A stretch of 64,000 nt of DNA, taken from IMG/VR virus record IMGVR_UViG_3300046703_000247, positions 1 through 64,000 of that record; one strand, written 5' to 3'. Of this stretch, positions 88 to 26,377 are shown piece after piece (within the stretch, counting starts at the first letter, position 1; each line of letters begins with the position of its first letter). The translations under genes and the position numbers were made by a program. The notes under the pieces were generated by a model, which did no database searches, had not been told where the DNA came from, and saw only the letters and a list, made by a program, of their open reading frames with translations. Origin of the DNA: a virus.

Positions 88-411
88 ATGAGACTGATTC
101 TCGCTGTGCTACTGACATTCTCGACTATCGGGCTGGCGCAAGATCCACCGGCGGCCACCCCGGCAACTACCGTAATTACCAAGGCTGCGCTCGAAGAACG
201 CCTGGCTGGTCTTCAGAAGAGTCGCGAGCAGACATTAGCTAACCTCAACGCCTACAACGGAGCCATTGAGGAGTGTCAGTACTGGCTCGATCAACTGAGG
301 GCCGAGGAGAAGGCCAAAGAGGAAGCGAAGAAGAAGGCCCCGCCTAAGCCCGCGAACGCGCCCGAGAAACCGGAGGCCAAGAAGCCTCCCGCCGGACCAG
401 CGGCACCGTAG
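88..411 (+). CDS. Secreted coiled-coil protein of unknown function
   Basis: The 107-residue product starts with a clear Sec signal peptide (hydrophobic core LILAVLLTF, cleavage near G-L-A-Q). A charged helical segment (about residues 33-80, with many Glu, Lys and Arg) predicts a coiled coil, and the tail is rich in Pro, Ala and Lys. A GAGAGGAAT ribosome site precedes ATG 88. The layout (signal peptide, coiled coil, Pro-rich tail) resembles some outer-membrane spanin subunits, but no lipobox cysteine is present and it is far from the lysis genes, so I leave the function open. Confidence 0.7.
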   Translation: MRLILAVLLTFSTIGLAQDPPAATPATTVITKAALEERLAGLQKSREQTLANLNAYNGAIEECQYWLDQLRAEEKAKEEAKKKAPPKPANAPEKPEAKKPPAGPAAP

Positions 412-496
412 CGTGGCCAACCAATTCTGGGCGGGCCACGTTCCGCGTTCTTCTGGTCCGCCCTCTCCCACCACCGAAACCGAGGAGTTAAGAACC

Positions 497-715
497 ATGG
501 AAGCCTTTGCAGAGTTCCCGAAGTGGAAGTACCACCCCGCCAAGGGTGGCAAGATCGTCCAGAATCCCGAAGAGGAAGCCGCGCTCGGCGCGAACTGGTA
601 CGAGTCTCCCGCCGACTTCCCCAAGCCCGACGAGATCCAGCCGGAAGCAGCCAGCGAACCCGCCCCGGCCAAATCAGCCAAGCCCAAGCGGCAGAAGAAA
701 CAAGACGGCGAATAG
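497..715 (+). CDS. Small hypothetical phage protein, lysine-rich tail
   Basis: The frame is open from 413, but the start at ATG 497 is preferred because GAGGAG lies 10 nt upstream; this gives 72 residues. The first half (FPKWKYHPAKGG, then NPEEEAALGANW) looks like a compact domain, while the last 25 residues are Ala/Pro/Lys-rich and end in a basic cluster. I do not recognise the family. It sits between small virion-module genes, so a minor structural role is possible. Confidence 0.65.
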   Translation: MEAFAEFPKWKYHPAKGGKIVQNPEEEAALGANWYESPADFPKPDEIQPEAASEPAPAKSAKPKRQKKQDGE

Positions 716-731
716 CGCCGCAACTTCAATC

Positions 732-787
732 AGGGAAGAAAAGGTTTGGGAGAGAAACCGCAGGGTTTCGCTCCCGAGGCTGCGGCC
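732..787 (+). repeat. Palindromic repeat copy 1 (forward)
   Basis: The inner stem GAAACC (754-759) pairs with GGTTTC (764-769). The outer stem GGGAG (748-752) pairs with CTCCC (771-775). A purine-rich 5' arm (GGGAAGAAAAGG) and a GAGGCTGCGGCC 3' arm flank the hairpin. It ends 27 nt upstream of the start codon at 815. Confidence 0.85.
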
Positions 788-814
788 TAAACCAACGCAG
801 CAGAGGAGTGTGTC

Positions 815-1171
815 ATGAGAGTCAACAAGACATTCACTGTTGGGGCCAACGAGATCAACGTCGCCACCGGCCTTACAACCGCCGCCGCGCGCGAGAATAG
901 CATGCCGGCGAAGCGGGTCTTCATCCAGATGCTGATGGGTGGATCCGGCCTGGGTTATGTGATGGACGGAATCCCCTGGGGGACCGTGGCGGACTCGACC
1001 GTCGACGGCCATGTGACGGCCCAACTCGCCGTCGCCACCGCCACCGCGCCGGGCGGCAGCTACACCGATAGGTCCCAAACGCCGGGCGCCGACATCGACC
1101 TGTCGAAGCTGTGGGTCCACGGCGCCAATTCGGGGGACAAGATCAAGGTCTCCTACGATTTGCCGGTCTAG
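815..1171 (+). CDS. Small probable virion protein
   Basis: The 118-residue product is preceded by an AGAGGAG ribosome site. It is rich in small residues and alternating hydrophobic positions, which suggests a beta-rich fold such as a small decoration or head protein. There is no signal peptide. The family is not recognised; the role is inferred from its place at the head of the virion module and the repeat copy just upstream. Confidence 0.7.
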   Translation: MRVNKTFTVGANEINVATGLTTAAARENSMPAKRVFIQMLMGGSGLGYVMDGIPWGTVADSTVDGHVTAQLAVATATAPGGSYTDRSQTPGADIDLSKLWVHGANSGDKIKVSYDLPV

Positions 1172-1185
1172 GAGGGAGGACTGCC

Positions 1186-2478
1186 ATGCTGAGACTCAAA
1201 CGCACCATCCTTTTCACGGCGCTCTCGGCCACTCTGGCCTTGGGCCAGCAAGTCACACAGCCATCCGCCGCGGGCGGTGGCGGTGGAGCCACTAGCGTTA
1301 CCGCGCCCGCCGTCATCGGCAAGGGGCAACTCGTCCAGGGCCAGGACGGTGCGCGGGGAATAGCACCGAACACCTCCGACCTCGGCGTGGTGAAGCTGAC
1401 CAAGGGCGTGCCGAGCGCGGCCGCCTCAACCGATCTGAGCGATTCTTCGGGGCTGGCCCGTGGCGCCGCCTCGCTCACCAATGCCGGCAAGGTGCCGGTT
1501 GTGGGAAGCACCCCCGGCACATTGGCCGAGGGGCCGATGTCCTGTGACGCTGTGACAGGGACTTGTACGATACCGACTACAGTGTTTGGCCCGAAGACGA
1601 TTGGCGCGGGCGCATCGCAGTTGCCAGCGGCGGCATCCTGCTCCGGCTGCATCACCATCGTCACGGACGCCTTGACTGCCGGGAGCGCGACGGGCGGCGG
1701 ATCGGCCATCTCGCTACTGAGGAGCAACGGGTCGGCGTGGGTGGCGCTGGGTGGCGGCGGCGGAGCGGCAGCATCTACTGACCTCACGGACTCAGCCGGT
1801 TTGGTACGCGGTGCCGCCGCCCTCACCACCAACAACAAGCTGGTAGAGGTCTCGACCACCGACGGCACAATACAGGAAGTAAGTAACCAGACCGCCAACT
1901 ACATCTACAGTGGTCCGGTATCTGGTGGGGCAGCGGCGCCGGCCTTCCGTGCTTTAGTCTCGGCCGACATCCCCGCCAATGCCGCCAATACGAGCGGAAA
2001 GGCTACGACGGCAGGGGCGGCGGCCACGGTCGCATTGACCGGCACAAATACTATCGCGGGTGGCACAGCCCTGGTTGTGACTGCGGCAGGCAGCGGCTAC
2101 ACGAGCGCCCCTACATCCTCTACGGCTGGCAACGGCACGGCCACATGCAGTGGTACGGCGGTGATTGCCACTGCGATTTCGGTAGCTGATCCGGGAGGAG
2201 CATCGGCCTATCTATTCAACCCCGCAGCCGCTTTAACGTTCCCCGCTCCTGTAGGGGTTGCGGGAGTACAGCGTTGCTATCGGAATGCAACCGGAGGGAC
2301 TGGCGTTATTACGATCAAAATGGCTGCTTCCAACACAGTGGACGTGGATGGAGCAAACGGCAGTTCTGCTGGCACGCTTGTCTCGGGAGGTGCCGTTGGG
2401 GACGCCGCCTGTATCGTTAGTGACGCGGCAAACCACTGGTATGCGTATGTCCAAAAGGGGACTTGGACAAACAACTAG
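1186..2478 (+). CDS. Secreted fibre-like protein with two internal repeats
   Basis: ATG 1186 is preferred over an in-frame upstream ATG at 1111, because GGAGGGAGGA lies just before it and it begins a typical signal peptide (hydrophobic core ILFTALSATLAL, cleavage before GQQ). The 430-residue product is very rich in Gly, Ala, Ser and Thr. It contains two related segments, AASTDLSDSSGLARGAASLT and AASTDLTDSAGLVRGAAALT, about 120 residues apart. Such composition and repeats are typical of tail-fibre shafts. A cleavable Sec signal is unexpected for a virion fibre assembled in the cytoplasm. Confidence 0.7.
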   Translation: MLRLKRTILFTALSATLALGQQVTQPSAAGGGGGATSVTAPAVIGKGQLVQGQDGARGIAPNTSDLGVVKLTKGVPSAAASTDLSDSSGLARGAASLTNAGKVPVVGSTPGTLAEGPMSCDAVTGTCTIPTTVFGPKTIGAGASQLPAAASCSGCITIVTDALTAGSATGGGSAISLLRSNGSAWVALGGGGGAAASTDLTDSAGLVRGAAALTTNNKLVEVSTTDGTIQEVSNQTANYIYSGPVSGGAAAPAFRALVSADIPANAANTSGKATTAGAAATVALTGTNTIAGGTALVVTAAGSGYTSAPTSSTAGNGTATCSGTAVIATAISVADPGGASAYLFNPAAALTFPAPVGVAGVQRCYRNATGGTGVITIKMAASNTVDVDGANGSSAGTLVSGGAVGDAACIVSDAANHWYAYVQKGTWTNN

Positions 2479-2486
2479 GGGCTAAC

Positions 2487-3212
2487 ATGCGATACCTTCT
2501 CGTCCTGATTCTTGCCGCGTCCGCCTACGGTCAGATGCTTCTGCCTATTGTGGGTGGAACTGTTGCGCCAGCTTCGGCCCCTCCTCCGCCTCCTGCAATC
2601 GTTCACTCAAGCCAAAATAGCACAACATCGGGCGTCACCAGCCTCGCTGCTCCATCAATAAACGCAACAACCGGAAACTTAATTGCTGTATATACTCGCA
2701 TCGGCGCTCCGCTAACGGACCCAAACTATGCTTCTGTGGGCGATTCCACTGGGGCTAACACCTACACTCCGCTCACGTCGCGCAACCTCAGTGGTGACGG
2801 CACGGGCCAATGGTTCTACGCGAAGAACATCACCGGAGCGGCCGATCTGGTTGTGACCCTGTACACCACGCAAGGTCGGGCCTACATAGCTCTTCAGGTC
2901 TTCGAGATTTCAGGAGTCTCGGCTACCACCCCGGCTGATGTTGACGCAGGCGGGACATTCAACGGCTCGACCGCGACTACGCCGACATTCAGCACGGCTG
3001 CCGCTGCCGAGATCATCTTGGCCGGGGCCAGCTTCAACAACATCTCAATCACGGCCACGGCGGGCGGGGCGTACACGATGGCCACACAGGATGCCCTTAA
3101 GGTGTCGGCAGTAGAGTACCTCGTGGTGTCGGAAACTCAAACCAACGTGACAGCGGACATGAGTATCACGAGCGCTGGCGGGTCGATCAATGCGGTGAGT
3201 TTCAAACAGTGA
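2487..3212 (+). CDS. Secreted beta-rich protein of unknown function
   Basis: ATG 2487 begins a signal peptide (core YLLVLILAASAYG, Gln next), giving 241 residues. The mature part has a short proline run (PPPPPA) followed by a Ser/Thr/Gly-rich, beta-strand-like region of about 190 residues without cysteines, ending in VSFKQ. It may be a lectin- or adhesin-like fold. It directly follows the other fibre-like gene on the same strand. Confidence 0.65.
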   Translation: MRYLLVLILAASAYGQMLLPIVGGTVAPASAPPPPPAIVHSSQNSTTSGVTSLAAPSINATTGNLIAVYTRIGAPLTDPNYASVGDSTGANTYTPLTSRNLSGDGTGQWFYAKNITGAADLVVTLYTTQGRAYIALQVFEISGVSATTPADVDAGGTFNGSTATTPTFSTAAAAEIILAGASFNNISITATAGGAYTMATQDALKVSAVEYLVVSETQTNVTADMSITSAGGSINAVSFKQ

Positions 3213-3252
3213 GGCAGGCACCCTAAATACCGTCCAACGTTCCTAGAACCCC

Positions 3253-3831
3253 ATGAACCCCACAACACTCTGCACACGCCTCCGCGGCCTCGAAGGCGCA
3301 ATCCCCTGGATGTACCTCGATGTGAAAGGCCTGGTCACCGTGGGAACCGGGCATCTACTCGAAACCCCCGAGGAAGCGGCCACGCTGCCCTTTATCGCGC
3401 GCGCGAGCGGGCTCCCTGCGGCGCCCTCCGTGATCGAGTTCAACTGGCAGTTGGTAAAGCGCGCCAAACCGGCCATGCTCGCGAGCTATTACCGGCGGTT
3501 CACCTCGATTGAGTTGCGCCCGGCGGCCATCGACCAGTTGCTTATAACCGACATCGAAGTCCACTGGCAGGGAGTGCTCACAGTCCGCCCCGAGTGCGCC
3601 GGCTTCCCCGAGCCCGCACAGCAGATCGTCGCCGAGATGGCGTTTGCATTGGGAGTTGGTGGGCTGCTCGCCTACAAGAAGATGCTCGGTGCCATGGCGC
3701 GCGGCGACTGGGACACGGCCGCATTCGAATCCCACCGCTCCGACATGCTCGCCTGGCGCAATGACGAGATGGCCAAGCTGATCCGCAGTATTCCGGCCGG
3801 CCTCGCGCCCGACACTTCACAGCTCGCCTGA
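3253..3831 (+). CDS. Endolysin, T4-type lysozyme (GH24)
   Basis: The 192-residue product hydrolyses the MurNAc-GlcNAc bond of peptidoglycan for host lysis. The catalytic triad is visible at family spacing: Glu14 (RGLEGAIPW), Asp23 (YLDVKG) and Thr29 (LVTVGTGHL), the same +9 and +6 spacing as Glu11, Asp20 and Thr26 of T4 lysozyme. No signal peptide or SAR segment is seen, so it probably needs a holin. A second, degenerate lysozyme-like gene lies at 46452. Its position among structural genes also allows a virion-associated role. Confidence 0.88.
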   Translation: MNPTTLCTRLRGLEGAIPWMYLDVKGLVTVGTGHLLETPEEAATLPFIARASGLPAAPSVIEFNWQLVKRAKPAMLASYYRRFTSIELRPAAIDQLLITDIEVHWQGVLTVRPECAGFPEPAQQIVAEMAFALGVGGLLAYKKMLGAMARGDWDTAAFESHRSDMLAWRNDEMAKLIRSIPAGLAPDTSQLA

Positions 3832-3869
3832 GGCGAGCGCAACCAAATCGAAAACAGGAAGGATTCATT

Positions 3870-4370
3870 ATGAACTCGCTCAAGAGAATTCTGGGAGGCG
3901 CCGCTCTCGCGCTTCTCGTCGCAGGCCTCGCGTTCGCCCAAGACAACTCGCCCCGCCAGTTTGCCGGCGCCGGCGCCAGTTGGAACCAGTTCTCCTCGCC
4001 GCAGATCAACGGGCTGCTCGTGTACGCGCACCGGCTCACCGGCAACGAATACCCGACCTACTCTTTCAGCGCCATCAACCTGCTGAGCGTCTCCCGAAAT
4101 CCGTTCAAGCTCCTAACGACCACGGAAACCGGCGTCGCTCAGTACCTGACGAAGTTCGGGCCGTTCTCGGTTTATGGCCTGGGCACGGCGGGCATGGCCG
4201 CGGTGGGAACCGCTGAGGGGACCAGCACGGGCTACGTCTTGGGAACGGGCGCGCTGGCGCTCGCGGGCTTCAAGGGAGGCTGGAAGGTCGGGCCGTACCT
4301 GCGCGTCATCAAGAGTTCGCTCGCCGAGCGCCAATGGGCCGTAGGAGTGATGGTCGGCTGGGGGGAATAG
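3870..4370 (+). CDS. Outer-membrane beta-barrel-like secreted protein
   Basis: An AGGAAGGA site precedes ATG 3870. A signal peptide (core GGAALALLVAGLAFA, Gln next) is followed by about 140 residues of alternating aromatic and small residues, ending VGVMVGWGE. These are features of a small porin- or OmpX-like barrel, although the terminal residue is Glu rather than an aromatic. It is encoded between the lysozyme and the gp4-type gene. If it inserts in the host outer membrane it could modify phage adsorption; this is inference. Confidence 0.6.
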   Translation: MNSLKRILGGAALALLVAGLAFAQDNSPRQFAGAGASWNQFSSPQINGLLVYAHRLTGNEYPTYSFSAINLLSVSRNPFKLLTTTETGVAQYLTKFGPFSVYGLGTAGMAAVGTAEGTSTGYVLGTGALALAGFKGGWKVGPYLRVIKSSLAERQWAVGVMVGWGE

Positions 4371-4371
4371 C

Positions 4372-5055: not shown

Positions 5056-5170
5056 GTTTCGCCTTTTCTATTCCCCATCCTAAGTTGGGGTAATTCCACT
5101 ACTTACGGGCGAAATCAGGTTTTCATGATTGTGCCGCAAATTGGCCGGGGTTGTCAAGCACAATTCTCAG

Positions 5171-5227
5171 CCGCAGCCACCAGAGGCGAAACCTGCGGTT
5201 TCTCCCCCGGTACCCCTTCTTCCCTTC
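5171..5227 (-). repeat. Palindromic repeat copy 2 (reverse)
   Basis: GAAACC (5188-5193) and GGTTTC (5197-5202) form the inner stem. CCGCAGCC lies on the left and TTCTTCCCTTC on the right, which is the reverse complement of the forward arms. It lies between the gp4 paralogue A stop and the stop of the minus-strand gene that ends at 5226. Confidence 0.85.
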
Positions 5228-5441: not shown

Positions 5442-5458
5442 GTCTCCGTTGTACCACC

Positions 5459-5516
5459 GAAGGGAAGAAAAAGGTTCGGAAAAAGAAACCTCGGTTTCGT
5501 TTTCCGAGGCTTCGGC
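5459..5516 (+). repeat. Palindromic repeat copy 3 (forward)
   Basis: The inner stem is GAAACC/GGTTTC (5485-5490, 5494-5499) and the outer stem is CGGAAA/TTTCCG-like. The 3' arm GAGGCTTCGGC ends 31 nt before the start codon at 5548. Confidence 0.85.
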
Positions 5517-5547
5517 ATAAACAGCCGCCTAGAAACGAGAACAGCCC

Positions 5548-6348
5548 ATGAGCACCCCCCCAGCTTCAGCCTTCCCGCAAACCGCCGCCTGGAACGCCTC
5601 GATCTTCGGCGGCCCCGGCGTAACCGTGGGGTCGGACATCCTCTATCCGGCCCTGCGCCTACTGCGTCTGATCCGCCCCGGTCAAGGCCCCCAACCCGAA
5701 ATCCTCACCGAAGCGCTAGCGGCACTGAACTCGATGATCGACTCGTGGAACATCGAGCGGTTGATGATCTACGCCGTATTGCGCAGCGTGTTCACCCTGG
5801 TTGCAAGCGACGGAGACTACAGCATCGGCCCTTCGGGAGACTGGCTCGTGGATAGCCGACCGTCGCGCGTGGAGAAGGCCGGCCTGATCGACATCAGCAA
5901 TCCGGCGCAGCCGCTCGAGCTGCCCATCGAGGTCCTCACCCTCGACAAGTGGAAGGCGATCACGCTCAAGAGTCTCGCCTCCACCCTCCCGCTGAGCCTC
6001 TACTACGACCAGAACCTGGACGTGGGCTCGGGCATGGTCTACGTCTGGCCGGTCCCGACCGTGGCCAACCAGGTGGCGCTCTACCTGTGGCGCTCCCTGC
6101 TCATGTTCCAAAGCGTGGAAGAGGCTTTCGATGTGCCGCAGGGCTACCTGCGTGCCTTGAAGTACAACCTGGCGGTGGAACTCGCGCCGTCCTATGAGAA
6201 CGCCGTGCTCAGCCCGCGGGTGGTGCAGACAGCGGCGGAAAGCAAAGCCCGGATCAAGAGCCTGAACGCGCCCTCGCTCGTGATGCGCTGCGACTCGGGG
6301 CTGCTCAACAACTCCGGCGGTGGGTCGGACTGGAGGACGGGGCAGTAG
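5548..6348 (+). CDS. P22 gp4-like tail accessory/head completion protein (paralogue B)
   Basis: The 266-residue product has the same core as the gene at 4372 (ILTEALAALNSMIDSWNIER, then IYAVLRSVFTL) but an N-terminal extension of about 45 residues. The C-terminal half keeps the same order of beta-rich and helical segments, including the DVPQGYLRALKYNLAVELAP helix that matches DLPPGYQLPIECSLAVLIAP in paralogue A. The two proteins could form a mixed ring, or one could serve a different joint of the neck. Confidence 0.75.
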   Translation: MSTPPASAFPQTAAWNASIFGGPGVTVGSDILYPALRLLRLIRPGQGPQPEILTEALAALNSMIDSWNIERLMIYAVLRSVFTLVASDGDYSIGPSGDWLVDSRPSRVEKAGLIDISNPAQPLELPIEVLTLDKWKAITLKSLASTLPLSLYYDQNLDVGSGMVYVWPVPTVANQVALYLWRSLLMFQSVEEAFDVPQGYLRALKYNLAVELAPSYENAVLSPRVVQTAAESKARIKSLNAPSLVMRCDSGLLNNSGGGSDWRTGQ

Positions 6349-11303: not shown

Positions 11304-12104
11304 ATGAGATTTACTGCGGCTTTTCTGGGACTGTGGCTTGTAATCCCGCTCTCCAGCCAGGTGTTCACTGTTGGCCAGCCAAAGAACATCGACTACTCGG
11401 CCAAAACCAGCACGCGCACAATGAAGATTGGCACCGCCGCGCCATCCTCGGGCGACTGCGATGCTGCCGGCGAAGAGGGTCGTCTGTACCTCCAGACCGG
11501 CGACCCCGCCTCGGTGCCGGGCCAGACATGGGTCTGCCGGAAGGCCGGCGCGAGCACCTACGGTTGGCAACCCATCGGGCATCTTCAGGGGACCGCCGCC
11601 CCTGCGACGTGCGTGGTAGGCCAGGTCTTCTTCGACACCGACGCGACCGCGGGTGCCAACTGGTTTGGCTGCACGTCGACCGACATCTGGACGCCGCTCT
11701 CCCATCTCCAGAACACCGATACCGGCACGACCTCTACCTGCTTCCAGGTAGCGAGCGGCGCTACGGGCCCGAAGTTGTGTACGGACGGATCGGGCGGATT
11801 TTCGCTCAAGGATGCGAGTGACAACGTCATTCTGAGTTGCACGACGGCGGGCGCCTGTACCTACTACGGCACCGGTTCTGGCGAAACCGAATTGAAGAAC
11901 CAGACTGGCACGCTCGCCGCCGGCTCCGCCTCGGGATATACGAACACCGGCATCAACTCGAGCGGTGATCCAGTTTGGCGCACCTATGGGGGAAGCGAAA
12001 AAACGGCGGCGGCCGCGTCCGCAGTGACCGCCAGCGGCGGATCGGGCTGCACCATCACGGCAATCGTGGCCGGAATCATCACCGCGGCGACGTGTGCACC
12101 ATGA
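11304..12104 (+). CDS. Secreted fibre-like protein with cysteines
   Basis: The 266-residue product carries a signal peptide (core FLGLWLVIPLSS, Gln next) after a GAGGA ribosome site. The mature chain is Gly/Thr/Ser-rich, with short motifs such as GRLYLQTGDPASVPGQTWVC and GQVFFDTDATAGANWFGC that repeat as 'value plus unit' beta segments. Several cysteines suggest an oxidising extracellular location. It overlaps the next gene by ATGA. Confidence 0.65.
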   Translation: MRFTAAFLGLWLVIPLSSQVFTVGQPKNIDYSAKTSTRTMKIGTAAPSSGDCDAAGEEGRLYLQTGDPASVPGQTWVCRKAGASTYGWQPIGHLQGTAAPATCVVGQVFFDTDATAGANWFGCTSTDIWTPLSHLQNTDTGTTSTCFQVASGATGPKLCTDGSGGFSLKDASDNVILSCTTAGACTYYGTGSGETELKNQTGTLAAGSASGYTNTGINSSGDPVWRTYGGSEKTAAAASAVTASGGSGCTITAIVAGIITAATCAP

Positions 12105-14317
12105 GAAAACTACTGTTGGCTCTGATCCTCCTCGCCCTGCCCCTGTGGGCAGCGGCACCCGTGTGCAATGCCGGGGCGCAGACCACGTACCGGGCGGTCA
12201 CTTCGGCCACCCTGGATGGTACTGGATCTACAGGAGATTCGGCGCTTGCCTACGCCTGGAGCCAGACCAGCGGACCGTCTACGGTGGCTTGGAGTGGACA
12301 GACGACAGCTACCCCGAGCGTCACCAACACTGTGTTCGGGTCCTACGTGTTCAGCCTGACGGTTACGGACGCCATCGCGCAGACCGCCACCTGTAGCGTG
12401 AAGCACGGGTTTGTGCTGACCGACGCCAACGGGATAGTGAATACCGGGAGCACCACGCTCGACACCCTGCTGGGGAAGTTGATCCGGTCTGGACTCAATC
12501 CCTGGCCGTGGGCTGACGATCGCCACACCGCGGCGGCGGACTTCAATATCGTCTATCTGGCGGACGGCTCCTACTACCAGGAATTTTGGGAGGACAGCCA
12601 AGGTCCGGGAACTGTCACTGTGACCGAGGGAAGTGCTGCCGTGACGGGAGTTGGTACGGACTTTACGACGCGCTACTGCGAAGGACCAGGGAGCCCGACG
12701 GTGGTCAAGACGGCTGCTGGTGGTCAGCACGTCCTGCTTTTGCTCTGGTACCCGGATAGCTCACCCGAAGGGTACGGTCTACGCTTTCAGTCGATTGCCA
12801 GTTGCACCGATGACACGCATCTGACCCTTGACGCTGTGTGGTTCGGGAACGGCCACGACTGCGCGGCGGGCGGGTGCTCCTACTCATACGACGACCCCTC
12901 GAACAGCTATGGCGGCGTGTGGAACTGGCCGGAGCGGGCCGGCTCGAACTACTACGATGCAGTGGCGGCCTTTTACGCGCTGTACTACCGCAGCGGCATC
13001 GACGACTACCTGACGGCGGCGCGAGACCTCGCGGACCGCGACTGGAAGTACCGCATGGACAGCGGGTTCATGTGCTACTACGGGCCGGGGGATCGCTGTG
13101 GTGGGAGCCTGCAACCGAGGTCGTATTCCGCGCTGGGGTTTGTCCTGCGGGCCAACGATGGGCGGTCTGATATGTGGCCGGGGCTGGAGAATCTCTGGTC
13201 GTATTCGATGAGTCTTGCCACGGACAGTATTTCCTGGGGCATCTGGGACACGCGCGAAGAGGCGTACATGACGGCGATGATCGCCTACTGTGCGCTCTAC
13301 GACACCGACGCCACGTATCGGGCGAACTGCAAGACCAGCCTCAGCGGATTGATGGAAGACCTTTGGGGCGTGAACCAATCTGCGACTGGAACCTTCGATG
13401 CTTTCTACGGCGCCCATAGTTCCTGGCTGGACTCGTGCCACGTGGATCTGACAAATAGTTCCACCACGGTGACCGCCGACGGCTGCACTTTCGATTCGGC
13501 CCACTTCCCGACACACATCGTTTTCCAGGCCGGCTTGACGGCCCCTGCAAACAACGCTGCAACAGAGAATGTCTATTACACGGCGACCTATTCAAACGAC
13601 ACGACGCTCACCCTTGATGCCCCCTACGCGGGCACCACGGGTGAGCACGGCTGGATGATCGGGTACGGGACTTGCCCCGGCGAGTGTTTCGTCGGCTGGG
13701 GATCGCAGCCGTTCATGGTGGGCATTCTGGGATTCGCTTTCGACATGACTGCAAAGGCTTTGACGGTTTCGGACCCAACCAACGCGGCGTTGGCTCTGCA
13801 CTACAATGCCGATCTCGCCACCTGGCAGAAGGATTACGGCTACCGCCCGGCAGTCAAGGGAATGCAGTACATGGTCGGGACGGTGGACTGTCCGACGCCC
13901 ATCAATGAGTCGTGGACGTGGTGCACGGCAAGCATGACCCCGACACAGGCCCGCACACTCAACGCGGAGTCTCTGCGGTCCGTGATGCTGGCCTATCAGC
14001 AGTCCTCCAACGCGACCCTGAAGACCTTTGCGGACACCCTCTACAACTCGATGTGGGCGGCGCCGGGGACGTGTCCTGTCGGATCAACGGCTTGCGTGGC
14101 AGACGGTGACTACATCTCCGACTGGGACGATGGCGCGTGGTTTCTACAACCTCCACCGGGAGGGAGCCCGTGGAACAACCGATGGCACAAGTATTTCGGC
14201 ATGTCATTCGGAATCGGGGGCAGCGCGTCGTGGCCTGCTGTCCGGCTGGGACCGTATACCGCCCCGACCCGGTTCATTCGCGGCCGACTGACCACCAATG
14301 TAGGAGGCACACCATGA
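12101..14317 (+). CDS. Large secreted PKD-domain protein, possible alpha/alpha-barrel carbohydrate-active enzyme
   Basis: ATG 12101 overlaps the previous stop (ATGA) and starts a signal peptide (core LLLALILLALPLWAAA); the product is 738 residues. Residues ~20-105 read as a PKD/REJ-type Ig domain (SATLDGTGSTGD, then YVFSLTVTDA). Residues ~270-660 contain repeated aromatic helices (NYYDAVAAFYALYYRSGIDD, ARDLADRDWKYRM), as in (alpha/alpha)6 toroid glycosidases or lyases. Beta segments such as VTEGSAAVTGVGTDF occur twice. A glycan-degrading tailspike-like role is inferred; no catalytic pair is assigned. Confidence 0.6.
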   Translation: MRKLLLALILLALPLWAAAPVCNAGAQTTYRAVTSATLDGTGSTGDSALAYAWSQTSGPSTVAWSGQTTATPSVTNTVFGSYVFSLTVTDAIAQTATCSVKHGFVLTDANGIVNTGSTTLDTLLGKLIRSGLNPWPWADDRHTAAADFNIVYLADGSYYQEFWEDSQGPGTVTVTEGSAAVTGVGTDFTTRYCEGPGSPTVVKTAAGGQHVLLLLWYPDSSPEGYGLRFQSIASCTDDTHLTLDAVWFGNGHDCAAGGCSYSYDDPSNSYGGVWNWPERAGSNYYDAVAAFYALYYRSGIDDYLTAARDLADRDWKYRMDSGFMCYYGPGDRCGGSLQPRSYSALGFVLRANDGRSDMWPGLENLWSYSMSLATDSISWGIWDTREEAYMTAMIAYCALYDTDATYRANCKTSLSGLMEDLWGVNQSATGTFDAFYGAHSSWLDSCHVDLTNSSTTVTADGCTFDSAHFPTHIVFQAGLTAPANNAATENVYYTATYSNDTTLTLDAPYAGTTGEHGWMIGYGTCPGECFVGWGSQPFMVGILGFAFDMTAKALTVSDPTNAALALHYNADLATWQKDYGYRPAVKGMQYMVGTVDCPTPINESWTWCTASMTPTQARTLNAESLRSVMLAYQQSSNATLKTFADTLYNSMWAAPGTCPVGSTACVADGDYISDWDDGAWFLQPPPGGSPWNNRWHKYFGMSFGIGGSASWPAVRLGPYTAPTRFIRGRLTTNVGGTP

Positions 14318-14832
14318 TCCTCGAACTGGCGCTTCTGTTCCAGGTTGCGCTGGGAGGTGCAACGGTCACCCTCTCCACGGGGCAGAGTAGTGTGACGGAC
14401 GCGCAGGGATACTACTCGTTTCAGGTTCCAAATTGCTGGACCGGGAGGGTTACACCGAAACTGAGCGGATTTCTCTTCACTCCGGCCTCCAGCTCGCGGA
14501 CCTGCCTGGGGGCGGATTTCGTGGCCGACTTCGTAGGCAATGCCACGGATGTGACGCCGCCGGTGGTGAAGGTGATCAATCCCAAGAACAACGCCTCGCT
14601 TCTGCGCCAACTTGTGCTGATCCAGGCCACAGCGACCGACAATCGGGCTGTGGTGGGAGTGCGCTTTCTGGCGGACGGAGTGGCACTGGGAGGTGAACTT
14701 CAGGTCGGGCCATATAAGACCCTCTGGGACGCCAGAAAGACGACCGCGAAGAGCTGGCACACGATCACGGCCATTGCGCGCGACGGGGCCGGGAACTCCG
14801 CTACGACGAGCGTGCGCGTGCGGATGAGGTAA
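14314..14832 (+). CDS. Ig-like (Big_7-type) secreted or fibre protein
   Basis: ATG 14314 overlaps the previous stop and has AGGAGG upstream; 172 residues result. The N-terminal half resembles a carboxypeptidase-regulatory-like sandwich (GATVTLSTGQSSVTDAQGYY). Residues ~80-172 form an Ig domain with the common pattern VRFLADGVALG, then PYKTLWDA, then HTITAIARDGAGN. Such domains decorate fibres and bind polysaccharide. The hydrophobic start (MILELALLFQVALG) could be a short signal peptide or just a strand. Confidence 0.65.
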   Translation: MILELALLFQVALGGATVTLSTGQSSVTDAQGYYSFQVPNCWTGRVTPKLSGFLFTPASSSRTCLGADFVADFVGNATDVTPPVVKVINPKNNASLLRQLVLIQATATDNRAVVGVRFLADGVALGGELQVGPYKTLWDARKTTAKSWHTITAIARDGAGNSATTSVRVRMR

Positions 14833-16292: not shown

Positions 16293-16351
16293 AAGGGAAG
16301 AAAAGGTCCTAGGAAAAGAAACCGTAGGTTTCGTTTCCTGGAGCCCCGGCC
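16293..16351 (+). repeat. Palindromic repeat copy 5 (forward)
   Basis: The outer stem AGGAAA/TTTCCT and inner stem GAAACC/GGTTTC surround a GTA loop. It lies between the minus-strand Tat gene start (16281) and the plus-strand start 16371. Confidence 0.85.
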
Positions 16352-17284: not shown

Positions 17285-18979
17285 ATGCTCGTCCCCCTCT
17301 TCCAAGGCGGCAGCTACACCTCCGACTCCCCCAACTGGGCGGCGGACCGCACCGTCAACCTCTTCACCGAAGTAGGCGAGTCGGGCGCCACCAAATCCGC
17401 GATGCGGCTGCGGGGCTCGCCCGGGCTGCGCCTCTTCTGTGAGCTGCCGACCGCTCCGGTCCGGGGTATTTGGGTCAACGAATCGCGCCTGTTTGCAGCC
17501 GGCGGCTCACGTAGCTATGAGGTCTTTCCCAACGCTGTCCCCCACGACCAGGGCGAGATCGGCGACGACGCCACGCATACGCCGGTCCAGATGTTTCCGA
17601 ACGGCGGGCAGTTGTTCATCGTTTCGGCTGGACAAGGCTACATCGACACCGGCACCGAGATCATCGCCTGCGAGCTCGCGACCCTGACCGGAACACTATC
17701 GAGCCCCGGAACGATCATCGTTACCCGCCGCGGCCGGGAGGGCGGTCGAACCAACTACCCGCCCACGACAAATGTCGATCCTCTGAACCCCTGGTTCACT
17801 GTCGATTGGACTTCGGGCGATACTTTCGACCCGGCCATGGTGGGCCGGGACATCACCCTGAATGGGGCGACCTTCGAGGTTCTCAGCGTTCGAGGAGACG
17901 GAAAGCAGATGAGGATCCGGGGCAGCGCCGGTGTCCTGGCAAACCTCACCTGGACCTGTGTTCTGCCCGTGTTGGCCAAGACCGGGGCCTTTCTCGACGG
18001 CTATTTCATCGCGGCTCCACCGGATGATAAGCGCTTCAGAATCAGTTCCCTCTATGACGGGCTGACCTGGGATCCGCTGGATTACGGGGTGAAACAGGGC
18101 TATCCCGACAACATCTCCTCGATCCTGGCCGATCACGGCGACCTCTGGCTGCTTGGCACCGAAACCGCCGAGATCTGGCGGAACACGGGGAATGCCGACT
18201 TCCCCTATGAGAAGGATCTGGGGGCCTTCATCCACCAGGGCTGTGCGGCCACCTGGAGCGTGGTACGGCTGAACAACGGCGTGGCCTGGCTGGGAGGGGA
18301 CGCTCGAGGAAGAGTCACCGCCTGGCGCGCCCAGGGCTACATTCCGGTACGGATTTCGACCCACGGCGTGGAGCAAGCTTGGCGCAACTATGCTGAGGTC
18401 TCGGACGCCATCGGCTTCGTCTACCGCCTGGACGGCCACGAATTCTGGCAACTCCAGTTCCCCACCGCGAAAGCCACCTGGGTCTACGATGCGCTCACTG
18501 GCCTGTGGCACGAGCGGGATAGTTGGGACCCGGTCGAAGCCGAATACGGGATGCACCGGGCCCGCTGCTACGGCTATGTGTGGGGCAAACACTTCGTGGG
18601 GGACTACGCCTCGGGCAAGATCTACGAGATGTCGGCGAGCTTCTATGACGACGACGGGACGGCGATTCGAAGATTGCGGCAGGCGCCACATCTCTCCGAC
18701 GAGCAACTCTGGCACTTCTTCTACCGGCTGCAGCTCGACATGGAGACCGGCTCGGTCGTGGCAGATCCGCCCATGACGCTCGAATGGTCCGACGACGGCG
18801 GCCACACCTGGAAGACGCCGCTGACAATTACCGCCGGGGCGCTGAACGACTTCACCAAGCGGGTGATCTGGCGCCGGCTCGGAAAATCCAGAGACCGGGT
18901 CTGGCGGATCACCTCAACAGCAGCCATTCCGCACACCTGGATCAATGCCATTATCGATGTCACTAAAGGAACGGCCTGA
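17285..18979 (+). CDS. P22 gp10-like packaged-DNA stabilisation / tail hub protein
   Basis: The 564-residue product is recognised by its N-terminal VPLFQGGSYTSDSPNWAADRTVNLFTE, GSPGLRLF, and the central block GAFLDGYFIAAPPDDKRFRISSLYDG, then LWLLGTETAEIW. These repeated blades are typical of the gp10 family. In P22, gp10 closes the neck below gp4 and anchors the tail needle and tailspikes. P22 gp10 is about 472 residues; the extra length here is spread over the N-terminal half. Confidence 0.85.
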   Translation: MLVPLFQGGSYTSDSPNWAADRTVNLFTEVGESGATKSAMRLRGSPGLRLFCELPTAPVRGIWVNESRLFAAGGSRSYEVFPNAVPHDQGEIGDDATHTPVQMFPNGGQLFIVSAGQGYIDTGTEIIACELATLTGTLSSPGTIIVTRRGREGGRTNYPPTTNVDPLNPWFTVDWTSGDTFDPAMVGRDITLNGATFEVLSVRGDGKQMRIRGSAGVLANLTWTCVLPVLAKTGAFLDGYFIAAPPDDKRFRISSLYDGLTWDPLDYGVKQGYPDNISSILADHGDLWLLGTETAEIWRNTGNADFPYEKDLGAFIHQGCAATWSVVRLNNGVAWLGGDARGRVTAWRAQGYIPVRISTHGVEQAWRNYAEVSDAIGFVYRLDGHEFWQLQFPTAKATWVYDALTGLWHERDSWDPVEAEYGMHRARCYGYVWGKHFVGDYASGKIYEMSASFYDDDGTAIRRLRQAPHLSDEQLWHFFYRLQLDMETGSVVADPPMTLEWSDDGGHTWKTPLTITAGALNDFTKRVIWRRLGKSRDRVWRITSTAAIPHTWINAIIDVTKGTA

Positions 18980-19003: not shown

Positions 19004-19063
19004 GAAGCCTGAAGGGAGCGAAACCCTGCGGTTTCTCTCCCTTCCAACCCACTCTTCCCTGAT
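19004..19063 (-). repeat. Palindromic repeat copy 6 (reverse)
   Basis: The inner stem is GAAACC/GGTTTC and the outer AAGGGAG/CTCCCTT. It starts 24 nt after the gp10-like stop. Confidence 0.85.
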
Positions 19064-19129: not shown

Positions 19130-19462
19130 GTGAAAATCAGGTACCGTATCGCGACCGCGGCAGTGGGCGTGGCGCTCCTGGTTGTGTTGTCCGCCCTGCC
19201 GATAGGGGGCGCACGGACCTACAAGGTGCTCGTGAAGTGGCAGGATAACGCGAATCCGTCCGGAACGACGTACCTGTTGTATCGAGCCGTGGGTGCTTGC
19301 AGCGCGACTTCGCAATTCTCGCAAATTGCGGCGACAACTAAAAAGAGCTATACGGATTTGCTCAAGCCCGGAGACTACTGCTTCCGCTGCACGGCGATAG
19401 CGAAGGGGCTTCCCGAATCCGCGCCCTCGAATCTGGTCACCGTCAGAAAGGCGGACTTCTAG
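19130..19462 (+). CDS. Secreted single Fn3-like domain protein
   Basis: GTG 19130 is preceded by AAGGAG. The 110-residue product has a signal peptide (core AAVGVALLVVLSALPIGGA) and one fibronectin type III-like domain (KVLVKWQDNANPSGTTYLLY, then KPGDYCFRCTAIAKGLPES). It abuts the two-domain Fn3 gene at 19462. Exported Fn3 modules often bind surface carbohydrate; no specific role is visible. Confidence 0.7.
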   Translation: MKIRYRIATAAVGVALLVVLSALPIGGARTYKVLVKWQDNANPSGTTYLLYRAVGACSATSQFSQIAATTKKSYTDLLKPGDYCFRCTAIAKGLPESAPSNLVTVRKADF

Positions 19463-20055
19463 TGAAATCCTTACTGCTATTCTTTGTTGCGATCCCCGCG
19501 TTCGCACAGGTTCACAGCGCCACACTCTCCTGGAATCACGCAGACCCAGCGGCGACGTTCTCGATTTATAAGGCATCTGGACCGTGTTCGAGCAGTCCGG
19601 CGTTCGCAAAAATTGCCAGTGGCATCACCGTCAAAACGTATCAGGATTTGGCCGTGGCGACCGGAGCCTACGCCTACGTCGCCACCGCAACGGTCGCGGG
19701 CGCGGAGAGCGTCTATTCCAATTGCGCGGATGCCCTTGTCCCGGCGTTTGCGCCGACTGGGCTCTCTGCCGGACCTGTTGCCAATGGGGCCGTGCCGCTG
19801 ACGTGGGCGGATCCGCAGGTTGGCGCGACGTGGAGCGTCTATCGTTCCCCCAGCGCCTGCAACCAGACGCCGACGTGGGCCAAGCTCGTTGGCGGCCTGA
19901 CGACGCGAGCATACAGCGATTCTACCGTTCCGATGGGCAGTTCCTGCTATGGGGTCACCGCCACATTGAACGGAGTAGAGTCTCCCATATCCAGCAGCGT
20001 GACCGTAACCCGGTCCGCTGCGGCCCCTACCGGGTTGACGGTGCAGGTACAGTGA
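19462..20055 (+). CDS. Secreted double Fn3-like domain protein
   Basis: GTG 19462 overlaps the previous TAG by one base. The 197-residue product has a short signal peptide (LLLFFVAIPAFA, Gln next) and two tandem Fn3-like domains (ATLSWNHADPAATFSIYKAS, and VPLTWADPQVGATWSVYRSP), each with one cysteine pair. It is clearly related to the single-domain gene before it, which suggests tandem duplication within cassette C. Confidence 0.7.
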   Translation: MKSLLLFFVAIPAFAQVHSATLSWNHADPAATFSIYKASGPCSSSPAFAKIASGITVKTYQDLAVATGAYAYVATATVAGAESVYSNCADALVPAFAPTGLSAGPVANGAVPLTWADPQVGATWSVYRSPSACNQTPTWAKLVGGLTTRAYSDSTVPMGSSCYGVTATLNGVESPISSSVTVTRSAAAPTGLTVQVQ

Positions 20056-22343: not shown

Positions 22344-23580
22344 CGGACCAGCCCTGCTTTTGCAGGCACCCACTTGGCCGATGCTGCTGGGGTCAACCGA
22401 TTCCGGCCCCTGGCAGAACGTCTCCACGGGAAAATTCTACTGCGCGCTGACCTATTACGATCCCGTTGCGGGTGACCGGTACTTTCGAATCTACCGTGCG
22501 GATGACAGCGCAACCAGCCCGTGGGTGTCGGTTCTCGATCTGCCGAACTACCGCAATGGCGGCACCCCTACGTTCGGATTCGACCCCTCCACCGGAATCA
22601 TCACCGCGTACTACCCGATCACCCCGAGCGGGTATCGGTTGGGAGAATTCGACACCAACACGGAATCTTGGACAACCTTAGCAAGTTCTGGTGGCCCGAC
22701 CGCGTTTTCGTACCTGCAGGTTCAGAGATGCGCAGACGGTTCCACCCTGTTGGCCTATAACGGTGGCTCGCCAGCGCACACGTTGGGCCAACGCTACGCA
22801 TCTGGATGGGGCGCCGTCTTCGACATTGCATCAGTGAGCGCCCCCCCTTTGGGCACGGCCGCGGACGGGAGCATCGTATATGTGCTCTACCGGGAAGCGG
22901 CCAGCACGACGGCCAAAATCGCCAGGGTGCTGGCGGACAACACGATTGATTGGACGGTGACCGTCGCAAACTGGCCCTCCCTCCCTTCTTACCTCAATAA
23001 CCTGTTCTTACAGCTTCACGACGGCCCGCCACAGGAGTTTGTGGTGGGTAGTGCCGACAAGACGTGGACGGGTCCAGTTGCGGCCGACGCGACGTTTACC
23101 GAGGCTCCCGTACTAGGTGTTCCGGCTGGCGGGACCTCTTTAGATTATTCAAGGAGCATCGTCCGCCGCCCCGATGGGGTTGTATGGCAAATCTGGAATG
23201 TTCAAGTTGTCACGTGGGTAGGAGAGGTTGCCACCCTAACCTTCGACGGCATGTACGCCCGGCAGTACCTGGGCGGGAACGCGTGGGGAGCCGATCAAGT
23301 CGGAATTGATTTCGTCGAGCATCCGCCGGACATGCCCCCCGCGTTCACTCCACCTGGCTTTCCGGACGGCCCATATCTGTATCAGTACAGCCACGCCCAA
23401 TGGACGACGCGAGGATCGAACGCCGGCTTCGGGATCATTTGTGACTTTCTCGTCAACGACACCAACCTGACCTGTACTATTTTCTTCAGCGAATTCGACG
23501 CTATCCCCGAAGTTCCGCCGGTTGTGACGGCCCTGCGCTCCCGCACCTGCTACTACAAGCCCTTTTTTCCACCGCGATGA
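22330..23580 (+). CDS. Probable beta-propeller-like virion protein
   Basis: ATG 22330 is chosen over an upstream in-frame TTG because AAAGGA lies 7 nt before it; this gives 416 residues. Repeated blade-like segments (RYFRIYRADDSATSPWVSVL, GYRLGEFDTNTESWTTL, DGSIVYVLYREAAS) suggest a propeller or a fibre head. The last third contains PPGFPDGPYLYQYSHAQWTT. It is probably part of the tail structure; no enzymatic motif is seen. Confidence 0.6.
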   Translation: MAWINGPALLLQAPTWPMLLGSTDSGPWQNVSTGKFYCALTYYDPVAGDRYFRIYRADDSATSPWVSVLDLPNYRNGGTPTFGFDPSTGIITAYYPITPSGYRLGEFDTNTESWTTLASSGGPTAFSYLQVQRCADGSTLLAYNGGSPAHTLGQRYASGWGAVFDIASVSAPPLGTAADGSIVYVLYREAASTTAKIARVLADNTIDWTVTVANWPSLPSYLNNLFLQLHDGPPQEFVVGSADKTWTGPVAADATFTEAPVLGVPAGGTSLDYSRSIVRRPDGVVWQIWNVQVVTWVGEVATLTFDGMYARQYLGGNAWGADQVGIDFVEHPPDMPPAFTPPGFPDGPYLYQYSHAQWTTRGSNAGFGIICDFLVNDTNLTCTIFFSEFDAIPEVPPVVTALRSRTCYYKPFFPPR

Positions 23581-23596
23581 TCCGAACGGCGCTGCC

Positions 23597-24064: not shown

Positions 24065-24065
24065 C

Positions 24066-24926
24066 ATGCCGCCAATCGTAATTGCAGGAGCGATTTCAGC
24101 CGGAGCTTCTATCGGTGGGGCTCTCATTAACAAGAGTTCCGCCAATAAGGCGGCCGAGATTCAGGCCGAAGCCGCACGCAAGGCAGACGAGGTCGCCAAC
24201 AAGCAGGCGGGCTACGTGGCCGACACGGGTTACGGCCTGGCCACCAACCTGCGCGACGCGGGCACCGCCAACGAGCAGACGCTGCAGCAGGTATCGGGAA
24301 CCGGCGAGAAAGCGCTGTCCCCGTACCTCGAGGCGGGCACGTATGGGGTGACGGCGCTCAAGGACCTCGGTCAGAACTTGAACAAGCCGGTCACAATGGC
24401 CGATTTACAACTCGACCCCGGCTTCCAGTTTCGGATGGAGGAAGGGCAGAAGGCGCTGGAGCGCTCGGCCTCAGCTCGAGGAGGTCTGCTCGGCGGCGGA
24501 ACCCTGAAATCCCTGGCGCGCTATTCGCAAGGCGTAGCTTCGGACGAATACCAGAAGGCCTTCGACCGGTACCAGACCGACAATGCCGCGCGCTTCTCAA
24601 GGCTGTCCACGCTCACAGGTGTCGGGCAGAACGCCACCGGCAGCCTGCTGGATCTGAGCAAGTGGTACGGGACCAGTTCCACCGGCAACCGCACGGATAC
24701 CGAATCGAGAGCTGCCAGCCTGGCCATGGGCGGAGTGACCGGGGCGGCCGATCTGCGCATGAAGGGGGCTGAGGCCGGCCTACAAGGAGCGAACGCATCG
24801 GCAGCCGGCACCGTGGCATCGGGCAACGCCTGGGCGCAAGGATTGAGCGGGGCGGGCTCGAGCATCTCGAACGCCATCCTGCTCTCTCAGATGCTGAAGC
24901 CGCAGACGCAGCCAATCAATATCTAA
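24066..24926 (+). CDS. DNA ejection protein (P22 gp7 type)
   Basis: The 286-residue product has a Gly/Ala-rich hydrophobic N-terminus (IVIAGAISAGASIGGALI), a coiled-coil rich in Ala, Glu and Gln, and the family hallmark RSASARGGLLGGGTLKSLAR with YSQGVASDEYQKAFDRYQTD. In P22-like phages these proteins are packed inside the head and injected with DNA to form a periplasmic channel. It precedes further internal virion protein genes (27497, 29055). Confidence 0.85.
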   Translation: MPPIVIAGAISAGASIGGALINKSSANKAAEIQAEAARKADEVANKQAGYVADTGYGLATNLRDAGTANEQTLQQVSGTGEKALSPYLEAGTYGVTALKDLGQNLNKPVTMADLQLDPGFQFRMEEGQKALERSASARGGLLGGGTLKSLARYSQGVASDEYQKAFDRYQTDNAARFSRLSTLTGVGQNATGSLLDLSKWYGTSSTGNRTDTESRAASLAMGGVTGAADLRMKGAEAGLQGANASAAGTVASGNAWAQGLSGAGSSISNAILLSQMLKPQTQPINI

Positions 24927-24928
24927 TT

Positions 24929-24986
24929 GAAGCCACCAGGGGCGAGACCCGGCGGTCTCTCCCCCGGTACCCCCTCGTCCCTGATC
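24929..24986 (-). repeat. Palindromic repeat copy 8 (reverse)
   Basis: The inner stem is GAGACC/GGTCTC, another compensated pair, with outer GGGG/CCCC. It begins 2 nt after the ejection gene stop. Confidence 0.85.
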
Positions 24987-24996
24987 TGCTCCGTCC

Positions 24997-25053
24997 GAAG
25001 GGAGAAAAAGGGTTTGGGAAAAGGAACCATAGGTTCCGTTTCCCGAGGCCCCA
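24997..25053 (+). repeat. Palindromic repeat copy 9 (forward)
   Basis: The inner stem is GGAACC/GGTTCC and the outer GGGAAA/TTTCCC. It ends 19 nt before ATG 25073. Confidence 0.85.
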
Positions 25054-25072
25054 CTTGAAAGAGGCAATCTTT

Positions 25073-26377
25073 ATGGAACACAAACGCAGTTTCCCACGGG
25101 CCATTCTTGGCCTGATCGCGGTTATGGTCCTGTCGGTAGTCGCACTGAACTGGCAGACCCTGGCCCAGAGCACCGGGCAGTCGGCCATGTACGCGCAGAT
25201 CTTCAAGACCCAGACGTCGACGGGCCGCAGCCTGATCTTTGTAGATGCCCGGGGAGTCGGCGCGACCAACCACGTCTTCACCTGGACTACGGCTGGAGTT
25301 CCCAGCGGCTGCACCCTGCTCATCGAATCGAGTCTGGATGCCGTCACCTGGACCACGGCGAGCACCCAGACCTGCACCTCGAGCGGGAGTGTGACCCTCG
25401 CAGATGCCAGTTATTCCTTCCTGACCGCGAATCTGAGCGTGCTGACGGGCGGCTCTACGCCGTCGATCGACGTGGCCTATCGCGGGTACCTGCCGGGGCA
25501 GGGCGTCCCCGTGCGCCCGGCGGAAGGCGGGACCGGCAGCACAACCGCCTTCACGGCGGGCTCGGTGCTCTTCAGCGGAGCCTTGGGTGTCTACACCCAG
25601 GACAATGCCAACTTCTTCTGGGACAACTCAAATAAGCGCCTGTGCCTGCTGGCGGCCGCCTGTTCGAACACTCTCGACGTTGGCAACGGCAAGTTCTCGG
25701 TGACTTCGAACGGGCTGCTCACGAGCTACGACGCCACCCTGCGTGCGCGCGTGGCCGGGAGCGTGGCCAGCACGGTAACAGGGGCAGCCTCCCAGACCGC
25801 CGCTCTCAGCGAGTGGAAGAACAGCGCGGGAAGCGTGCTGGCGAGTGTCACGGCAGCCGGGGTGATCACCCCGACCTCGGGTATCGCGGGGACCGGGAAG
25901 TCCCGGTTCTCGACCGTGCCGATTGGCTTCACCGCCTACGGCTCCTTTGGAACCAACACAACTCTGGTTGCCGGAACGATCTATTGGGCCGAGGTCTTCA
26001 TCCCGCGCAACGTCACCCTCACGGGGATCGGCGTCTTGAACGGCGCGACCGTGGGCACCGACAAGTGGATTGTGGGGCTGTACGGATCTGCGGGTGGCGC
26101 CGTGTTGGCCAACAGCGCCCTGGCCGGAGCGACTGCGAGCGGCGCGGACGCCTTCCAGGAGCTGGCTTTCACGGCGACCTATGCGGCGGTCGGACCGGCG
26201 CGGTACTGGATCGCATTTCAATCCAACGGAACCACCGCCAAGATCCGCACGATTGCGGTGAACACGTTTGTGGATGTGCTGACCGATAGCGATACAGGAT
26301 CGTTTGGGATACTGACGGCTTTGACGGCGCCGACCACGTTCACAGCGGATTTGGGACCCATAGCCTACGTGTACTGA
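25073..26377 (+). CDS. Fibre protein with N-terminal signal/anchor
   Basis: ATG 25073 has GAGG upstream; an in-frame TTG at 25055 is less likely. The 434-residue product starts with a long signal or anchor (AILGLIAVMVLSVVALNW, then LAQ). It contains the fibre motif RPAEGGTGSTTAFTAGSVLF, followed by a Gly/Ala/Thr-rich shaft and a C-terminal beta domain (YWAEVFIPRNVTLTGIGVLN, YWIAFQSNGTTAKIR) resembling the receptor-binding end of tail fibres. Confidence 0.7.
   Translation: MEHKRSFPRAILGLIAVMVLSVVALNWQTLAQSTGQSAMYAQIFKTQTSTGRSLIFVDARGVGATNHVFTWTTAGVPSGCTLLIESSLDAVTWTTASTQTCTSSGSVTLADASYSFLTANLSVLTGGSTPSIDVAYRGYLPGQGVPVRPAEGGTGSTTAFTAGSVLFSGALGVYTQDNANFFWDNSNKRLCLLAAACSNTLDVGNGKFSVTSNGLLTSYDATLRARVAGSVASTVTGAASQTAALSEWKNSAGSVLASVTAAGVITPTSGIAGTGKSRFSTVPIGFTAYGSFGTNTTLVAGTIYWAEVFIPRNVTLTGIGVLNGATVGTDKWIVGLYGSAGGAVLANSALAGATASGADAFQELAFTATYAAVGPARYWIAFQSNGTTAKIRTIAVNTFVDVLTDSDTGSFGILTALTAPTTFTADLGPIAYVY

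Follow-up and report, generated by a model that had tools for sequence, protein, structure and literature searches.

Particles of Caudoviricetes are taught to be assembled wholly in the cytoplasm. In this study, we analyzed the first 64 kb (the window) of the 83,233-base IMG/VR record IMGVR_UViG_3300046703_000247, which represents a P22-like phage with predicted Sec signal peptides (SPs) on fiber-type proteins and on the protein encoded directly after the coat gene; genes are named by their start positions in the window. Judged by sequence, these SPs are real, and Sec export of tailspike-, fiber-, and post-coat-type proteins by P22-like phages of soil Acidobacteria is very likely; related phages produce tailspikes and fibers of these types in the cytoplasm.

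Signal peptides in the post-coat gene family

SPs were called with a home-made scorer of the n, h, and c regions. It separates a handful of well-known Escherichia coli secreted N termini from cytosolic ones, although the membrane protein lacY also scores high. Its false-positive rate on internal N termini is about 1%, and null rates overall are 1 to 2%.

The post-coat gene, which the initial annotation had not listed among its SP genes, encodes a product that starts with VIKNLIRICALLCALTGLAFG/QATMAETTLSAAV (a slash marks the predicted cleavage site, here ...GLAFG/QATMAETTLSAAV). When four homologues are aligned, the first mature residue, Gln 1, falls just ahead of the initiator Met of the members without an SP (MAINQTTLSG, MAITNTTLSA). 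A scan of viral contigs, combined with our own and earlier-fetched loci, yielded 69 distinct members. An SP was predicted in 40 of them, with 38 different SP sequences, and the junction followed the pattern [AGSCT]/Q in 39/40. In the remaining 29 members, the initiator Met lies exactly where this domain begins; a 41st SP-like member (L443; score, 8.58) was counted as SP-less. The gene immediately upstream encodes a P22-type coat in 39/40 SP-bearing and 29/29 SP-less loci, and one member was found on a contig of a same-class genome, within a prophage-like coat-gp4-gp10 array. On a rough tree built from few columns, the SP label changed 3 times versus 22 times for shuffled labels. A start preceded by a Shine-Dalgarno (SD) sequence was found at the junction in 0/41 SP-bearing post-coat genes, and an SD-like motif precedes the SP start in 38/41.

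The two groups also differ in their Cys content. Complete SP-bearing members have a nonzero even number of Cys residues in 36/38 cases, mostly exactly four, whereas SP-less members contain 0 to 4 Cys residues without a rule (nonzero even in 9/25; Mann-Whitney test on counts, P = 3e-10).

Signal peptides ahead of tailspike head-binding domains

The related phage G010 carries five consecutive SP genes of the spike or fiber type just ahead of a lysis-type gene, the first of them encoding an SP, Gln, and a head-binding domain. In Xanthomonas phage PBR31, phage DSL-LC05, Rhodoferax phage P26218, and others, the tailspike opens directly with this domain at the initiator Met. Its profile matches the tailspike head-binding domains of cyanophages Pam1 (7eeq) and Pan3 (9vyg), and an AlphaFold model of the G010 domain (predicted local distance difference test [pLDDT] score, 74) matches those of Pam1, Pan3, and P22. 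Among 90 head-binding homologues, the SP ends exactly at the domain in 7, and 83 have no SP; in 82/83 of the latter, Met lies within ~6 residues of the domain. The seven SP tailspikes keep 180/210 conserved cells, and 8 of the 30 changes are paired replacements of Leu/Gly by Cys/Cys that give a CxxC motif. CxxC occurs in the head-binding domain of 4/7 SP-bearing versus 0/83 SP-less homologues, counts that are not independent since the cases are clustered (three in one clade plus L160).

Like the tailspikes of P22 (gp9), Pam1, and Pan3 (PDB 1LKT, 8U1O, 7EEQ, and 9VYG), the SP tailspikes of the relatives have this N-terminal domain and keep the gene position after the ejection genes. Unlike them, they bear a Sec SP in place of the initiator Met, Gln at +1, and often CxxC, features that are absent in the 83 homologues. 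In the chromosomal Sulfopaludibacter prophage (G002), the SP tailspike is the sole protein with a head-binding domain; its gene comes after the ejection genes and shares an ATGA overlap with the gene upstream. A virion-attachment domain directly after an SP was thus seen in seven relatives and in none of the genes of the phage itself, which, unlike P22, Pam1, and Pan3, is without a head-binding domain. A search of the open-access literature, subscription journals and preprints being outside it, turned up no description of tailed phages with SPs on their tailspikes or post-coat proteins.

The L160 contig (G073) is from a phage of another lineage with a GC content of 0.38. Positions 29242-30741 encode its SP-bearing head-binding tailspike with CxxC, and two other spike-like genes of this phage have no SP.

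Fiber encoded at 25073

The window itself encodes an SP-bearing fiber at 25073. The structural operon of a different, apparently long-tailed phage contains its homologue L263 (64% identical). Identity between the mature parts is 67%, with the junction Gln retained and all four Cys residues invariant; the SPs are unalignable. At least 18 SP-bearing post-coat proteins share the C-terminal domain of 25073 (best expect value [E], 1e-40), and an SP is absent in 72/78 fibers that have only its central module (GGTG...FFWD). An AlphaFold model of 25073 based on two sequences reached a pLDDT of 33, and therefore no fold is claimed. Two lower-GC phage contigs (L306 and L317) also carry SP-Gln fibers within structural operons.

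Host, enrichment of signal peptides, and glutamine at +1

The structural module of the phage is P22-like, with P22-type portal, scaffold, coat, gp4, gp10, and ejection genes in order and a coat protein 34 to 43% identical to P22-type coats. The relatives of the phage by portal include a prophage in a Solibacteraceae metagenome-assembled genome (51%) and a prophage inside a 446-kb "Candidatus Sulfopaludibacter" contig (43%), and the host is, on the strength of these relatives, very probably an acidobacterium.

SP-like starts were found in 16/97 called genes (16.5%) of the phage versus 13/321 (4.0%) in six P22-like phages of Proteobacteria (Fisher P = 1e-4). When N-terminal residues were shuffled, 8 observed cases compared with 2.7 expected and a maximum of 7 in 200 shuffles. 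SP genes were not significantly concentrated in the late region (9/34 versus 7/63 elsewhere; P = 0.08), partly because Tat-like (twin-arginine) and membrane open reading frames (ORFs) elsewhere in the genome score too.

In the "Ca. Sulfopaludibacter" host contig, 33% of called genes have an SP, and Gln occupies +1 in 25/69 (36%) of the confident SPs, against a Gln background of 4%. The host also encodes a plant-type glutaminyl cyclase (PF05096; E, 7e-95) and a DsbA-like Thioredoxin_4 protein. As the host is rich in SPs, places Gln at +1, and has the cyclase, the SPs of the phage resemble the export signals of the host itself. A preference for Gln at +1 after signal peptidase I cleavage, the Q-rule, has been described as specific to Bacteroidetes (Bochtler 2018, PMC5837995; PMC10653852). 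The acidobacterial host resembles Bacteroidetes in combining Gln at +1 with glutaminyl cyclase and differs in its identity, the 36% deriving from a "Ca. Sulfopaludibacter" contig. This bias is apparently new to the literature, and it points to a Gln rule of secreted proteins that reaches beyond Bacteroidetes. Over positions 1-360000 of G002:C6 and 14 genomes from its family, about a third of predicted SPs have Gln at +1 (25/69 and 8/26), which amounts to a bias of the Q-rule type in Acidobacteriota. As for the SP-Gln fibers of L306 and L317, they raise the possibility that phages of further Q-rule hosts, Bacteroidota among them, place SPs on fibers.

Late genes of the window

The initial annotation had placed clear or likely Sec SPs at ten late genes, many of them ending in Ala/Gly-Gln, on bodies mostly resembling fiber, Ig/Fn3, PKD, or barrel domains. 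All ten ORFs are present (Table 1). Nine N termini pass the scorer, with n, h, and c regions and an AxA-type site; 11304 is borderline. The gene at 14314 was rejected as an SP gene, given its weak score of ~6, the lack of Lys or Arg, and a Pfam CarboxypepD_reg match from residue 12. The preference for Gln was borne out in 7/9 SPs (Ala/Gly/Ser-Gln). As to the bodies, a PKD domain in 12101, an Ig domain (Big_7) in 14314, and a tail-fiber module in 25073 were recovered; the others matched no Pfam, PHROG, or NCBIfam family.

Homologues of 88-411 in other phages (L079 and L083) start at the coiled coil, without an SP. A relative of 1186 in phage G003 (44959) is a collagen-like fiber with the arrangement SP-Q-Gly-rich, and 11304 has a fiber module in common with an SP tail fiber of phage G004. 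The SP genes at 11304-14317 are placed between the gp4-type adaptor gene at 5548 and gp10, 12101 overlapping 11304 by ATGA. The closest relative of 12101 is a 49% identical, 1,000-residue SP protein beside chromosomal genes, in a genome from the family of the Sulfopaludibacter host; no close relatives of 12101 were found in viral contigs, its relatives being chromosomal. A tblastn search of 1186, 12101, and 25073 against an annotated phage collection gave no matches. The product of 3870 is possibly a small outer-membrane barrel, as judged from its sequence.

Table 1. Features of the phage record (window positions unless marked "record"; a slash marks the predicted cleavage site; E, expect value)
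Position (strand)	Feature	Basis or remark
1..21 (+)	Last seven codons (IGSMAD, stop) of post-coat gene	In-frame continuation across record end
88..411 (+)	SP (MRLILAVLLTFSTIGLA/Q; GLA/Q) and short coiled coil	Score, 10.1-10.4
1186..2478 (+)	SP (...LALG/QQ) and Gly-rich fiber-like protein	Scorer
2487..3212 (+)	SP (MRYLLVLILAASAYG/Q; AYG/Q) and 226 residues, no recognized fold, no Cys	Scorer
3253..3831 (+)	Lysozyme-like, no SP, probable endolysin, flanked by SP genes	phrog_13211, E 5e-8; phrog_7 endolysin, E 5e-4
3870..4370 (+)	SP (...AGLAFA/QD) and ~143 residues, no Cys	Score, 11.9
4372	gp4-type adaptor	
5548..6348 (+)	gp4-type tail adaptor	phrog_12985, phrog_637, SU10_adaptor
11304..12104 (+)	SP (borderline; ...VIPLSS/Q) and Cys-rich protein, 10 Cys in ~248 residues	Scorer
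12101..14317 (+)	SP (MRKLLLALILLALPLWA/A; LWA/A), PKD domain, and large Cys-rich body, 18 Cys	Scorer, domain search
14314..14832 (+)	CarboxypepD_reg-like and Big_7 Ig protein, SP unsupported	Score, 6.2
17285..18979 (+)	gp10-type head closure protein (Hc3), marker of P22-like virion	phrog_578, E 4e-104
19130..19462 (+)	SP or N-terminal anchor and Fn3-like small domain, 3 Cys in all	Score, 11.3
19462..20055 (+)	SP (VKSLLLFFVAIPAFA/Q; AFA/Q) and two apparent Fn3-like domains, 4 Cys	Scorer
24066..24926 (+)	gp7-type DNA ejection protein, no SP, adjoins SP fiber 25073	phrog_598, E 1e-23
25073..26377 (+)	SP (...NWQTLA/Q), tail-fiber module, and C-terminal domain of many SP-bearing post-coat proteins	Scorer, homologues
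record 77387	Portal	
record 79706	Scaffold	
record 80926	P22-type coat	
record 82247-83233	Post-coat gene, directly after coat	GTG start, Shine-Dalgarno GGAG

Proposed mechanism and alternative explanations

The SP, its exact junction, the Gln rule, the Cys pattern, the kept head-binding fold, and the lack of an alternative start are features of the sequences. From them, we infer Sec export, cleavage, pyroglutamate formation, disulfides, and docking after lysis. The host Sec pathway would carry the tailspike-, fiber-, and post-capsid-type proteins across the inner membrane, signal peptidase I would cut at Ala/Gly-Gln, and the host glutaminyl cyclase would probably cap the new N terminus as pyroglutamate. 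The proteins would then form disulfides and fold in the periplasm. Heads with gp4/gp10 tails would be built in the cytoplasm; at lysis or later, the exported spikes and fibers would attach to the released particles by means of their N-terminal virion-attachment domains. Such late docking is mechanically possible, given that the tailspike is the last component to join the P22 particle and that spikeless particles accept it in vitro.

The initial annotation had offered two readings, host-surface coating and fiber assembly outside the inner membrane. The latter is favored, since in the relatives the SP directly precedes a proven virion-attachment domain (the P22/Pam1 head-binding fold), and since this domain stays conserved and belongs to the sole such tailspike of a prophage. 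Surface coating fits 12101 better. Together, the kept virion-binding domains and the paired Cys residues favor periplasmic oxidative folding and the attachment of spikes to virions at the time of lysis or later. An excess of Cys across all SP proteins was not uniform among genomes (higher in the phage itself, G010, G008, and G004; lower in G001), and the Cys argument is thus restricted to homologous families. As the whole explanation, Sec export, folding, and docking on released particles stands, in our estimate, at an even chance. Somewhat short of that, and tentative, is a two-compartment virion in a lineage of tailed double-stranded DNA phages, in which a cytoplasmic capsid and tail hub would be joined, in a final assembly at or after lysis, by spikes and head/tail fibers that had matured in the periplasm through Sec export, cleavage, capping as pyroglutamate, and disulfide formation.

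Several observations weigh against assembly outside the inner membrane. A hidden Markov model search of all ORFs of the phage gave no match to a gp9-type tailspike head-binding domain; the link of its own genes to the virion therefore depends on gene position together with the post-coat gene and fiber 25073, and the SP-less post-coat protein is not an established virion protein. Some of its SP genes have no virion-attachment domain, several of their products (2487 and 3870) contain no Cys, and 12101 resembles a chromosomal secreted protein. Neither DsbB nor VKOR was found in the five host-family genomes tested. Besides the clustering of the CxxC cases, most IMG/VR contigs have no assigned host, and the support comes from sequence and a home-made, approximate scorer.

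Part of this evidence speaks for the main rival, in which the proteins are exported without entering the virion and act at a late stage of infection by coating the host envelope or modifying it, fiber modules being reused as adhesins. Their role would be to mask receptors, exclude superinfecting phages, digest polysaccharides, or assist lysis. The genes without a virion-attachment domain, the secreted-protein character of 12101, and 3870, maybe a small outer-membrane barrel like lambda Lom (PMC12309495), all fit this view, as do the SP genes that Porphyromonas gingivalis phages carry under the host Q-rule (PMC10367356). However, the head-binding domain directly after the SP of the relatives keeps conserved residues that a surface-only protein would not need, and no second protein with this domain is encoded by the Sulfopaludibacter prophage. 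We regard envelope modification as a real possibility for the set as a whole, but one well below even; it probably holds for 12101. A minority of the SP genes (12101, perhaps 3870) is accordingly better read as encoding host-type envelope or secreted proteins.

Lysogenic conversion, with morons expressed mainly from the prophage and supplying the host with secreted proteins, would suit the prophage state of the relatives and the host-derived appearance of 12101. It is improbable, given that the genes run codirectionally among coat, gp4, gp10, ejection, and lysis genes rather than as separate units and that the post-coat gene lies beside coat in nearly all 69 loci. The N-terminal segments might also stay uncleaved, as membrane anchors of fibers or inside the virion, for example, in a DNA ejection conduit. 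Long hydrophobic cores in 19130 and 12101 and the hydrophobic N terminus of the ejection protein 24066 (score, ~8) point that way, but free exchange of SP sequences with retention of the AxA/Q junction, the host-like Gln at +1, and the absence of such a segment from 83 head-binding homologues make it highly improbable. Least credible is an artifact of wrong start codons or chance hydrophobic N termini in a GC-rich genome: the scorer is approximate, and 14314 and some short ORFs are doubtful, but the null rates of 1 to 2%, the control phages, the family-wide split between SP and no SP, and the lack of alternative starts all contradict it.

Relation to known systems

PblA and PblB of Streptococcus mitis phage SM1 are tail-type proteins that act on the host surface and are released by lysis; they are not known to have SPs. 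In tailed temperate phages of P. gingivalis, five SP genes without an assigned function have been described whose predicted cleavage exposes Gln in keeping with the host Q-rule (Matrishin et al. 2023, PMC10367356). The SP genes reported here likewise expose Gln, but they encode tailspike, fiber, and post-coat proteins of acidobacterial P22-like phages, not of phages of Bacteroidota. Similarly to lambda Lom and other moron envelope proteins, 3870 might be an exported small outer-membrane protein, although no sequence match to Lom was found, and Lom is not a fiber and has no virion domain.

If spike production does take place outside the inner membrane, particles from a mixed infection could acquire spikes of the other phage, disulfides would be available to receptor-binding domains, and lysis would set free unattached spikes able to block or digest receptors. 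An SP-Gln directly ahead of a virion domain provides a sequence signature for finding more cases.

Other features of the record

The record is circularly permuted at 83233/1, the post-coat ORF running in frame across its end into its start, and a terminal repeat is absent. A single ORF of 5,786 residues occupies 29055-46415, with transglycosylase, methylase, and helicase parts apparent from its sequence; its G001 counterpart has 5,144 residues.

A dispersed repeat of ~50 bases with a GAAACC-N3-GGTTTC hairpin lies at 729-790 and 12 other places in the record, for example, 5170-5225, 5461-5522, 15656-15719, 16294-16333, 19014-19063, 49849-49888, and 60090-60116. At 16318-16332, the hairpin is terminator-like.

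The ORF at 15997-16281 (-) encodes a mini-protein that joins a Tat-like leader (MNRRGF...) to an apparent N-terminal arm fragment of a P22-type coat (HLAFAKMVNRDYENQFAFKGPKIGDTLEVRKPARF). By eye, similar fusions of leader and coat arm occur in two related phages (G001 C35, 14548-14853, and G003, 22842-23285). Further ORFs with Tat-like leaders lie at 15638-15997 (-), 27095-27406 (-), 48235-48657 (+), and 48657-49007 (+). One of these four contains the motif LDPERLLWVPGKKLISIP, which is also found in the relatives G001 and G003.

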